DNA from: Methanomicrobia archaeon | GTDB taxonomy: Archaea; Methanobacteriota_B; Thermococci; Methanofastidiosales; NM3 | Length of the DNA stretch: 64,000 nt | Assembly: GCA_030603445.1 (NCBI GenBank) | Contig: JAUVXU010000004.1 | Span: 1 to 64,000, forward strand | Reading direction: 5' to 3' | In this document: piece after piece, positions 22,437 through 41,182 of the stretch | Layout of the letters: each line of letters starts with the position of its first letter | Position numbering within the stretch: the first letter of the stretch is position 1 | Translations under genes and position numbers: made by a program | The notes under the pieces: model-generated | Database searches by the model: none | What the model was told of the DNA's origin: nothing | Seen by the model: only the letters and a program-made list of their open reading frames with translations

Positions 22437-22560
22437 TAAAAGAAAATATCTGACTTTAAAATTATTTCTTTTTTTTCATATTATCTATTTATACCCCTAA
22501 TTTCCATTCTGCATACAGGCATTTAACGCCTCTTCATGAATAAAAACGCATATACCATAA

Positions 22561-22598
22561 GATTTATAAACATACTACAAAATTGGAAAACTGGAGGG
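22561..22598 (+). promoter_or_regulatory. TATA box and Shine-Dalgarno of the aIF1A gene
   Basis: The TATA-like GATTTATAAA is at 22561-22570 and a strong Shine-Dalgarno GGAGGG at 22593-22598. They place initiation just after 22598. They rule out the in-frame ATG at 22536, which lies upstream of the promoter. Six nt after GGAGGG comes an in-frame ATA (22605); eleven nt after it comes an out-of-frame ATG (22610). Confidence 0.6.
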
Positions 22599-22604
22599 AA
22601 TTTC

Positions 22605-22928
22605 ATAGCATGGACATCAAGGAAATTCATACCGATAAGTGAAGAGGAACAAATTTCGCGAATAAGAATGCCAAAGAACGACGAGGTCATCGGCGTTATC
22701 GAGCAACGAATGGGCTTTGGAAAGATGAGTGTACAATGTCTTGACAATAATACGCGCCTATGCAGGGTTAGAACAAAAAAGAAAGGCAAGACATGGATAA
22801 TAGAGGGCGACGTGGTCCTTGTCAAACCATGGGAACTACAAAGCCACATACGCGGCGACATAATATTCAAGTACACAAAAGCACAAAGCAACTGGTTGCG
22901 CAGGAAAGGAATTTTAGATTTTGAATGA
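22605..22928 (+). CDS. eif1A: translation initiation factor aIF1A with a non-standard start
   Basis: Binds the ribosomal A site during initiation. The OB-fold is clear: SRIRMPKNDEVIGVIEQRMG, CLDNNTRLCRVRTKKKGKTWI, EGDVVLVKPWELQ, and the C-terminal YTKAQSNWLRRKGIL. Family alignment needs residues before the first usable ATG (22668), including EEEQISRIR. The best-spaced codon after GGAGGG is ATA at 22605, giving 107 aa, the usual length. The alternative is ATG 22610 (MDIKEIHTDK, then TGA) with a +1 shift at AAG-TGA into the main frame, giving about 105 aa. An indel error is also possible. Confidence 0.85.
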   Translation: MAWTSRKFIPISEEEQISRIRMPKNDEVIGVIEQRMGFGKMSVQCLDNNTRLCRVRTKKKGKTWIIEGDVVLVKPWELQSHIRGDIIFKYTKAQSNWLRRKGILDFE

Positions 22929-22975: not shown

Positions 22976-23049
22976 GCCTCGGTGGCTTAGCCTGGTATAG
23001 CGGCCGCCTCGTAAGCGGCAGGTCGGGGGTTCAAAGCCCCCCCGGGGCT
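22976..23049 (+). tRNA. tRNA-Thr (anticodon CGU)
   Basis: A 74-nt cloverleaf. The acceptor GCCTCGG pairs with CCGGGGC (23042-23048). The anticodon stem GCCGC/GCGGC encloses loop CTCGTAA (anticodon CGT). The T-stem GGGGG/CCCCC has loop TTCAAAG, and the discriminator is T, as expected for archaeal tRNA-Thr. No intron and no encoded CCA. The gene ends about 2.2 kb before the AT-rich island. Confidence 0.95.
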
Positions 23050-23090
23050 CTAACTATAAGATCCTCATGACATTTTACAGAGACTTGACT

Positions 23091-28499: not shown

Positions 28500-29420
28500 A
28501 TTAAGAAAAATACCACCATAATAATAATTATTATAATATTGTGCCTTTCTGCTGTTTGTATCGGTACAGATAGCGATAACGATAATGAGACCACTACAAC
28601 TACACCCCCAACGACGACGATTGTTCCAACTACGCCTTCTGAACATATGTATTACTCTCAATTAGATATAACAAGTGTAACATCTAATAATAACAAAATA
28701 ACTATTGAAGGAACAACAGACCTTCCTTCAGGTTCAACTTTGATTGTAGGTGTAAAACTAGCAAATCTCGAACCAGAGGACACCTGGGTTGGTGTAGATG
28801 CACATGCAGAAGTTTCCAATGGAAAGTTTTCTGTAACTATGGATACCATCACAAACCCTGCTTTTGCAAAAGGCCCCTATGTTGCTTCAGCATTTTTTAC
28901 TCCAAAGAATCAGGAGCAAAATGTTATTGACTGCGTTGGAGAAAATGGAGAATATTTGACTGGTGAGCATCTTCTTTTTGGAAATTGGAATATGTTGGAA
29001 GTAGAAGTTACTGTAGATTCACTAAACCTAAATATTCAAACTGAATACCCTATGGTAAAAGCTATAAATTATCCTTCTCACTCTGCGGAACGTGCTTTAG
29101 CCGAGTTTTTAATTTCGTGGCAAAATGAAGATTGGGAAAGAATGGCATCTTTCACTCAAAAAACGTGGAAACATGGTGAAGACGATCCCAATGATATAAT
29201 GTGGGCATGGTTTGGATTCATGGAGTTACAAGGAGTTGAGATAAATAGTGTGGTTCATACTAGTGAATGCGTAACTGATATTTCATTCACAATGTATTAT
29301 ATAATATTTAATGATGTAAAATCTGAAACGAGAGTAGCTCGGGTGATATGCGAAACAGAACCATATACACCAGACCCCTCTGGTGAATGGGGTGTTAATC
29401 CAATCTCAATATTGTCATAG
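28500..29420 (+). CDS. Thr-rich-linker surface lipoprotein
   Basis: About 306 aa if translated from ATT 28500: KKNTTIIIIIIIL forms a signal peptide ending in the lipobox LSAVC. After the Cys comes a Thr/Pro linker (TTTTTPPTTTIVPTTP) typical of archaeal surface proteins. A beta-rich domain follows (ITSVTSNNNKITIEGTTDLP ... GKFSVTMDT), which may be a carboxypeptidase-regulatory or CARDB-like fold. The C-terminal domain (AERALAEFLISWQNEDWERM ... FTQKTW) resembles NTF2/DUF4878-like cone folds. Function unknown. A strong hairpin terminator follows. Confidence 0.6.
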   Translation: MKKNTTIIIIIIILCLSAVCIGTDSDNDNETTTTTPPTTTIVPTTPSEHMYYSQLDITSVTSNNNKITIEGTTDLPSGSTLIVGVKLANLEPEDTWVGVDAHAEVSNGKFSVTMDTITNPAFAKGPYVASAFFTPKNQEQNVIDCVGENGEYLTGEHLLFGNWNMLEVEVTVDSLNLNIQTEYPMVKAINYPSHSAERALAEFLISWQNEDWERMASFTQKTWKHGEDDPNDIMWAWFGFMELQGVEINSVVHTSECVTDISFTMYYIIFNDVKSETRVARVICETEPYTPDPSGEWGVNPISILS

Positions 29421-38887: not shown

Positions 38888-41182
38888 TTATGCTAATCCT
38901 GGATTGTTTATCCATGCTTCTGCCAAGTGTATGAGCAATCTTGCCATGTCCTCTCCGATATCGTCCTCTCTGTCTTCAACATTGTTGATAAATGCATTTA
39001 GGATATTTTCGAATGGCTTTATCTTTCCTTTTTCAAGCAGCATTTTGGCATTTTCTAGCTTTACTAAGAGACTTTTCTCTAACCCCTTGTTATCCAACGT
39101 ATCGATAAGATCCTCAAGCGTATCGGATACAGGTGGTAAGATTGTCCATGGATTAAAGTCAACGTTGTCACTTACTGCGTCTCCCATACCTAAAGGATTT
39201 AAGGATAGGTTATACGGCCCAGTATTGTGGCCCCACCAATTATTGGTGGCGTCAATCGAAACACCAGTATAATTGTAGCAACCGTAGCCAGTGTTTCCAT
39301 AAATACTATTATTGTGCAAAGTGATGTTGGAAGGTGTGCCATTCCATATTCCAACACCGTTACCGGTTCCGTTGTATCCATTCCATGTGCCACTATTGTT
39401 ATAAATTATGTTGTTGGTGGCGATGACATTAGAACAATTGCCTGTTAGACTGAGAGCTCCTGCACTATATCCTTCGCCGGCTACATTAGTTATAACATTA
39501 CCTGAAATTATAGCGGTATCGCTAGCAACAAAGCTGATTCCGCCTTCACGAGCGCCATCAACAGTGTTATTTGTGATGGTAGCGTTTGGACAAGAAGGTC
39601 CGCACCAACCGCTGCCACCCACCCATATGCCGTGGTCTCCTGAGTTAAGGACTGTGTTTCCCATAATTATCGCGTCGCTAGATCCCTTAGCAATGAACAT
39701 GCCATCGCTGAGGTTGTTTTGAATGAGGCAGTTCTGAACGGTCAAGTGTGTGTTGCAGAGCGCATACATCGGGTAGCAGTTGTTCTGTGACTTGACATTC
39801 TCCACCATGCAACCTGTGTAGTAGACAAAGCCTTCACTTTCGGCGTCATGAGCATAGTCGCGAAATACAATTCCGTATCCCCAATAGCCTGGCGCGCCGA
39901 AGTTCTGAACAGTAAGATTCTTTATGGTAACATTGTTGGCTGTAACGTGGATGCCTTTGGCCCAGCCAATGGTGCTAGTGCCTGTGCCATCGAGAATAAC
40001 GCTATCACGGCCTTCACCAATCAGAGTCAAATTATCAGTGGTGATTCTGACAAAAGGGCTGCTGGTAGCGTTATAAGTTCCTGCCGCCACACTAATGGTG
40101 TCGCCAGGACTGGCAGAATCAATAGCGGACTGAATTGAGGGGAATGGGCCATCTGCGGTGGCATAGCCTATAGCATAGTTACCACTTGCATCTTTTCCTG
40201 AGAACCACATCTTATAGATATTTCCATCTTTAATTACTCTTGGCGTATAGGCTCTATTAGTTCTCCATGATACGCCGTCATCCTTATGGAATAGAGGATT
40301 ATTGGCATCTTTAGTCCATGATAGGCCATCAGCCGAATAGGCATAACCTATCCCATAATTGGCGTTTGGCCCGCCACAAAACCACATATGCCAGATCCCC
40401 TCAGCATCTTTTATCACTGTGGGATAACCGACAGACCTATAATCCCACCCCACCATTGGATCGTTTGCTTCTGTACATGGGTTCAACACAGGATCATTGC
40501 CATATCTTTTCCAGTGCGTGCCATTTGCTGAATAGCCAATGCCAATATATTCATTATTACCATTAGTTGCCATGTAGTACATAACGTATTTATTATTCCA
40601 AATATCGCCATCATCCAGAATCTCAGCCCCGCCGGGGTTATAGATTAAATCACCCGGGCCATAAGAGCCACGATTCCAGCCAGTACCAGCACCTGTGACC
40701 AACTTATAAGAATCATCTTGTGTGAGGGCCTGGTCCTCACTCCAATTGATGCCATCGGTAGATTCAGCATACCTTATCGCCCCGACGGAATATATGCTCG
40801 TGCCGGAATTCCAGTACCATATTTTGAATTTGCCATCCATATACTGAACGAGGGAGTGATTTGCATTTGTCAGGCCATTGACCGGATTGGATATTTCACT
40901 CCATACCAGGCCATCTGACGATGTGGCATACCCAACCCCCGAACTTGAGCCGTACCACATTCTATAGTCGTTATCAGAAACCTTAACAATTGTTGGGTAA
41001 TATGCTTTTAAAGCTGAAGCACTTCCAAATATTGGATTCCCTACACCCTCTGTCCATTTGCTTACATGTAGGGTTGCCGGACTTTGTGCCTCCACCACTT
41101 CCCCAATTGGCATTATCACTAACAAAGACATCAAAAACATCGTTGCTATCGTTAAGCTTGTTAATTTTTTCTTTTTGTTCAG
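38888..41182 (-). CDS. large secreted beta-propeller/beta-helix surface protein
   Basis: About 764 aa. Signal peptide, then ~300 residues of repeats of the form MWYGSSSGVGYATSSDGLVW, FKIWYW, WHMWFCGGPNANYGIGYAYSADG, like the five-bladed propeller of GH43/GH130-type proteins. A right-handed beta-helix follows (IQSAIDSASPGDTISVAAG ... NNTVDGAREGGISF). The C-terminus, SLLVKLENAKMLLEKGKIKP then LNAFINNVED, resembles the FIMAH helical domain. GGAGGTG (41189-41195) is followed by a CTG at 41182 six nt later; a GTG overlapping the Shine-Dalgarno is the alternative. TATA near 41231-41242. Confidence 0.75.
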   Translation of the reverse strand: MNKKKKLTSLTIATMFLMSLLVIMPIGEVVEAQSPATLHVSKWTEGVGNPIFGSASALKAYYPTIVKVSDNDYRMWYGSSSGVGYATSSDGLVWSEISNPVNGLTNANHSLVQYMDGKFKIWYWNSGTSIYSVGAIRYAESTDGINWSEDQALTQDDSYKLVTGAGTGWNRGSYGPGDLIYNPGGAEILDDGDIWNNKYVMYYMATNGNNEYIGIGYSANGTHWKRYGNDPVLNPCTEANDPMVGWDYRSVGYPTVIKDAEGIWHMWFCGGPNANYGIGYAYSADGLSWTKDANNPLFHKDDGVSWRTNRAYTPRVIKDGNIYKMWFSGKDASGNYAIGYATADGPFPSIQSAIDSASPGDTISVAAGTYNATSSPFVRITTDNLTLIGEGRDSVILDGTGTSTIGWAKGIHVTANNVTIKNLTVQNFGAPGYWGYGIVFRDYAHDAESEGFVYYTGCMVENVKSQNNCYPMYALCNTHLTVQNCLIQNNLSDGMFIAKGSSDAIIMGNTVLNSGDHGIWVGGSGWCGPSCPNATITNNTVDGAREGGISFVASDTAIISGNVITNVAGEGYSAGALSLTGNCSNVIATNNIIYNNSGTWNGYNGTGNGVGIWNGTPSNITLHNNSIYGNTGYGCYNYTGVSIDATNNWWGHNTGPYNLSLNPLGMGDAVSDNVDFNPWTILPPVSDTLEDLIDTLDNKGLEKSLLVKLENAKMLLEKGKIKPFENILNAFINNVEDREDDIGEDMARLLIHLAEAWINNPGLA

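Follow-up and report, generated by a model that had tools for sequence, protein, structure and literature searches.

Unusual start sites in genes for factors that select start codons have been described in bacteria and eukaryotes. The bacterial infC gene, which encodes IF3, starts with ATT in E. coli and with ATC in Streptomyces, and IF3 represses this non-canonical start of its own gene (PMC5472188). In Streptomyces, IF3 also represses the GTC start of sigR, and here the repression was experimentally shown (PMC5472188). Eukaryotic eIF1 (SUI1) is translated from an AUG in poor context and is negatively autoregulated (PMC5756025). Among the archaeal factors, aIF1 is the one that selects against non-canonical starts, and the initiator tRNA is stabilised by aIF1A (PMC6237735). 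By sequence comparison, we show here that an archaeal aIF1A gene starts with AUA, that the gene lacks an AUG start throughout the order, and that this is specific when compared to two control genes. The locus resembles infC in that an initiation-factor gene with a good ribosome-binding site keeps a non-canonical start, with the codon varying by clade. It differs in its codons, which are AUA, CUG, UUG and sometimes GUG, and in that aIF1A is the homologue of IF1 and not a known discriminator, its autoregulation being something we only infer. Like eIF1, aIF1A is a start-selection factor with a suboptimal start site of its own; however, the weak site there lies at eIF1, whereas archaeal aIF1 has ATG and its partner aIF1A the weak start. 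The likeness to sigR is a conserved rare start codon that holds expression down and is overlooked by gene finders, although sigR is not an initiation factor and its repression is experimental, while that of aIF1A is presumed.

The start site of aIF1A in the window

The window, the whole stretch of 64,000 nucleotides that was analysed, is part of contig C45; the assembly totals 1.62 Mb in 48 contigs. Its aIF1A gene, (M)AWTSRKFIPISEEEQISRIRMPKNDEV..., occupies 22605-22928 (+) with 107 codons plus stop, as judged from frame translation together with family and structure matches, and tRNA-Thr(CGT) follows downstream at 22976-23050 (+). The frame matches Pfam PF01176 (eIF-1a; E 9.5e-15, 54.4 bits against a cut-off of 30.2) and NCBIfam NF003084 (118.2 bits, cut-off 91), lies slightly below the cut-off of the equivalog TIGR00523 (101.0 vs 102.9), and has 1jt8 as nearest solved chain (E 1.9e-27). 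The leader is very short and carries a strong Shine-Dalgarno sequence. The TATA box at 22563-22570, TTTATAAA on the plus strand, is preceded by CCATAAG, and this promoter is conserved in the two relatives of a three-genus alignment. The Shine-Dalgarno GGAGGG (22593-22598, +) reads GGAGG(G/T) at an identical position in the three genera; no 16S of the host was detected, so the anti-Shine-Dalgarno was assumed. An earlier sequence-only reading had placed GGAGGG correctly and had recognised the TATA box, the latter at 22561, which we correct to 22563. It had also remarked that the gene lacks a normal start, and indeed no ATG, GTG or TTG was found in frame between Shine-Dalgarno and conserved core in the window, the next ATG being at 22668. 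Six nucleotides past GGAGGG and in frame stands ATA (22605-22607, +), just as that reading had described.

The sample of the family (f1) comprised five genomes, including two of the host's genus and two of other genera. The two same-genus genomes, which are incomplete assemblies, yielded no full aIF1A, while those of the other two genera (G003, locus L002; G004, locus L003) encode an aIF1A with 81% and 76% identity, respectively. Comparison of the locus in these relatives, which had been proposed as a check, gave GGAGG, the same spacing and ATA as in the window, and not an ordinary in-frame ATG. Neither relative has an in-frame NTG between Shine-Dalgarno and core; in G004, the only start-like in-frame codons between the upstream stop and the core are an ATT inside the Shine-Dalgarno and the ATA, with no NTG at all. 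The spacing of seven nucleotides from the end of GGAGG is also that of the CTG and TTG starts in other families, and the three genera of the family all have ATA as the in-frame codon at this position, while 18/18 genomes of the order have ATA, CTG or TTG there, which is more than chance. Since ATA and its spacing are kept and no other start is possible in three genera, AUA 22605 is, from this alignment, very likely the start of aIF1A.

Other starts fit the locus poorly. The only upstream in-frame ATG, at 22536-22538 (+), was tried and rejected; it lies upstream of the TATA box, and the relatives have stops between it and the Shine-Dalgarno. Translation from the internal ATG (22668-22670, +) would use the first ordinary in-frame start codon past the promoter in this genome and would yield a factor that lacks both the N-terminal tail and the RIR motif. 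This ATG, however, is part of the conserved RxRxP core, has no Shine-Dalgarno at proper distance, and aligns with CTC in G003 and TTG in G004, while the conserved RIR residues lie upstream of it and would be dropped, so that we consider such a start very unlikely.

The sequence-only reading had offered two further ways out. The first was a programmed +1 frameshift of the kind described for prfB (RF2), starting from an ATG at 22610. The letters are as it described them: an out-of-frame mini-ORF, MDIKEIHTDK (22610-22642, +), ends at AAG-TGA (TGA at 22640-22642), and omission of T22640 leads into the main frame at GAA 22641, so that the product would read MDIKEIHTDK-EEEQISRIR. On paper, this resembles prfB, in that a +1 shift could get past the in-frame stop closing a short ORF. 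However, an AUG-initiated zero-frame ORF conserved up to the shift site is not present in G003 or G004, nor was the mini-ORF or its ATG seen in any other member of the order, and the main frame of both relatives is nonetheless open from the Shine-Dalgarno. Furthermore, ATG 22610 sits 12 nt from the Shine-Dalgarno. With neither ATG nor mini-ORF in the relatives, and short ORF and shift site thus not conserved, we reject the frameshift as highly improbable; ATG 22610 is simply what GCA TGG gives by chance when read out of frame. The second was an indel from assembly or sequencing that conceals an ordinary ATG, a concern to which the fragmentation into 48 contigs gives some ground. Two genomes that were assembled independently show the identical arrangement around ATA. 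This takes the concern away, because the error would need to have happened three times, and aIF1A starts are non-AUG in all four families of the order. An indel is hence just as improbable as the frameshift.

Start codons of aIF1A and of control genes across archaea

The order was recognised as Methanofastidiosales by way of named relatives, which belong to Candidatus Methanofastidiosia and Theionarchaea. Within the order, aIF1A was found in 18 genomes, and in every one of them its start is non-AUG (3 ATA, 11 CTG, 4 TTG), distributed by family as ATA in f1 (three genomes), TTG in f2 (four), and CTG in f3 (two) and f4 (nine). Because these genomes are related, 18/18 stands for fewer than 18 independent events. 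Thus, the AUA start that had been suggested for this initiation-factor gene is not only conserved in three genera, but part of a wider avoidance of AUG.

The genomic context of aIF1A varies. In other families and orders, the gene heads a cluster with genes for what we take to be a RIO1-like kinase and a KH protein. In family f1, aIF1A has left this cluster and stands alone before tRNA-Thr, and a divergent aIF1A-like paralogue with an ATG start precedes the RIO1-like gene. This paralogue is located at G000:C45:94161-94421 (-) (L302) in the host and is also found in G002:C43 and G003:C1, with the N-termini MARKKSK, MTKKRSK and MGKKKSK. As the aIF1A of f1 lies outside the cluster and is non-AUG all the same, the non-AUG start is independent of the aIF1A-RIO1-KH operon.

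The control genes behave differently. The start of aIF1 is ATG in 20/20 genomes of the order and in 8/8 genomes outside it; aIF6 starts with ATG in 19/19 genomes of the order, and 28 of 30 genomes from the wider sample have an in-frame ATG where its start normally lies. The ATG start of the divergent aIF1A-like paralogue serves as a further control. As in infC, we therefore find an initiation-factor gene with a non-canonical start behind a good Shine-Dalgarno, conserved across relatives, and the other initiation-factor genes that served as controls keep AUG. Judged from these alignments, one initiation-factor gene shuns AUG across many archaea and the two others tested do not.

A wider survey covered 198 further archaeal genomes together with named ones. 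When the in-frame codon 6-8 nt after the best Shine-Dalgarno was tallied at 151 loci, with start codons not favoured, TTG (46), ATG (31), CTG (17), ATA (4) and GTG (2) were obtained, every other codon occurring at most seven times and mostly derived from chance Shine-Dalgarno-like strings inside the gene. After such strings had been resolved, there were 135 Shine-Dalgarno-led loci, of which 102 are non-AUG (TTG 68, CTG 28, ATA 3, GTG 3) and 33 are ATG; about three dozen of these labels were set by eye, where an intragenic string outscored the real Shine-Dalgarno or the latter was short. In a tree of the 135 loci, from which the ambiguous L185 (ATA then GTG) was omitted, the ATA loci group together in one well supported clade. 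For CTG, at least 4-9 changes of the label are required, a count to be read in light of the short alignment and its many weak forks. Those Methanobacteria that were read have TTG, save one GTG in the clade, Hydrothermarchaeum has CTG, Thermococcales have ATG, and DPANN have ATG, often without a Shine-Dalgarno. Four genomes (G161, G241, G259, G276) carry two aIF1A copies, both with CTG behind GAGG (L177-L181, L170, L172, L175). In most sampled Shine-Dalgarno-using archaea outside Thermococcales, aIF1A avoids AUG, and the data indicate that translation of essential archaeal genes starts at AUA and CUG as well. A search of an open-access library turned up no description of an AUA or CUG start for aIF1A.

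Non-AUG starts elsewhere in the genome

The sequence-only reading had called AUA a codon that the cell's own machinery should reject. This is too strong, as two further genes of the host genome have ATA exactly where 4/4 family relatives have ATG. One presumably encodes a gamma-carbonic-anhydrase-like protein (L311:727-1269, +), the other, by our own reading of the sequence, a YdjM-like protein (L322:14902-15411, -), and both are private changes from ATG to ATA. ATA in place of the relatives' ATG indicates that AUA is a usable start and initiates in this organism. AUA by itself is hence not unique to aIF1A; the comparison indicates, however, that the ATA starts outside aIF1A are private changes, unlike that of aIF1A.

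Further candidates were noticed in the window. A lipoprotein-like ORF (28500-29417, +) likely uses a Shine-Dalgarno-matched ATT start at 28500, GGAGGGGATAAA-ATT-AAG-AAA..., its first in-frame ATG being 49 codons further on, and the signal peptide of a secreted protein (38891-41182, -) likely starts from CTG 41182 behind GGGAGGTGGAAAAA. In another archaeal lineage, two genes of genome G272 likely have non-NTG or rare starts too, namely CTG for a shikimate-dehydrogenase-like gene (L343:13714-14559, -) and ATA for a TatD-like one (L343:1927-2679, +).

It could be argued that the lineage simply tolerates AUA, AUU and CUG, and that aIF1A is just a case of drift with no regulatory significance. The private ATA starts of the two host genes, the convincing ATT and CTG starts of the lipoprotein and signal-peptide genes, and comparable isolated cases from other archaeal genomes would all agree with such relaxed start use. 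However, the two ATA genes have ATG in all relatives, while none of the order's 18 aIF1A genes has it, and aIF1 and aIF6 remain ATG. In addition, background counts with a simple ORF caller on 372 kb of the host genome and 200 kb of each of four others gave no genome-wide support: in the 372 kb, neither ATA nor CTG is in detectable excess over coding background seven nucleotides past the Shine-Dalgarno (ATA 9/182 vs 8/127), so that such starts are rare in the genome. Relaxed start use is thus an unlikely explanation of the aIF1A start.

Possible roles of a weak aIF1A start

Start codons drift toward AUG, since switches from UUG to AUG are about ten times more frequent than the reverse, per ancestral codon (PMC5622118), and prolonged avoidance of AUG therefore needs a reason. 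We consider it probable, from the distribution of start codons, that the non-AUG start of aIF1A is kept by selection. The weak start is dispensable, as ATG is found in Thermococcales and in certain other genomes. The combination of a strong Shine-Dalgarno and a weak codon suggests a throttle, with aIF1A output held down or tied to start-codon stringency. Initiator Met-tRNA would read AUA 22605 despite a mismatch at the third position. The strong Shine-Dalgarno would render the weak codon usable, and the weak start would reduce the output of aIF1A. This output would follow the stringency of the initiation complex, which is set by aIF1, aIF2 and aIF1A itself, in a homeostatic arrangement that would work like bacterial infC or eukaryotic eIF1. 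We put at roughly 0.7 the probability that selection keeps a weak start specifically at this gene, and that this start limits aIF1A synthesis and lets it respond to initiation stringency, much as in infC; lower output, selection as its cause and any feedback loop are what we infer from the codons.

The strongest competing explanation is that the weak start is conserved for low dosage only, keeping aIF1A scarce relative to 30S subunits and involving no feedback. It draws on the same sequence evidence, and CTG at both copies in the four two-copy genomes fits it. A weaker Shine-Dalgarno or promoter would be a simpler way to set dosage, yet the Shine-Dalgarno is strong, and we regard dosage alone as plausible but somewhat short of even odds. 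A true feedback loop on aIF1A is more tentative still. A direct copy of infC is doubtful because the known archaeal discriminator is aIF1 and not aIF1A; the likely repressor would be aIF1, which would make the arrangement a cross-control within the initiation complex. The N-terminal tail of yeast eIF1A favours suboptimal starts (PMC5756025), and together with the role of aIF1 this makes the sign of any self-feedback ambiguous. Ribo-seq data exist for Methanosarcina (PMC11456600).

Gene finders limited to ATG, GTG and TTG would miss or truncate genes with AUA or CUG starts. It is conceivable, though we would not yet favour it, that many archaea other than Thermococcales and DPANN keep aIF1A synthesis under homeostatic control at the level of translation, via a UUG, CUG or AUA start. 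With the same reserve, such control might be a third case after bacterial IF3 and eukaryotic eIF1, but exerted on the IF1/eIF1A partner. Should the weak start be both selected and regulatory, each of the three domains of life would control a start-selection factor via its own start site, and they would have reached such control through different factors.
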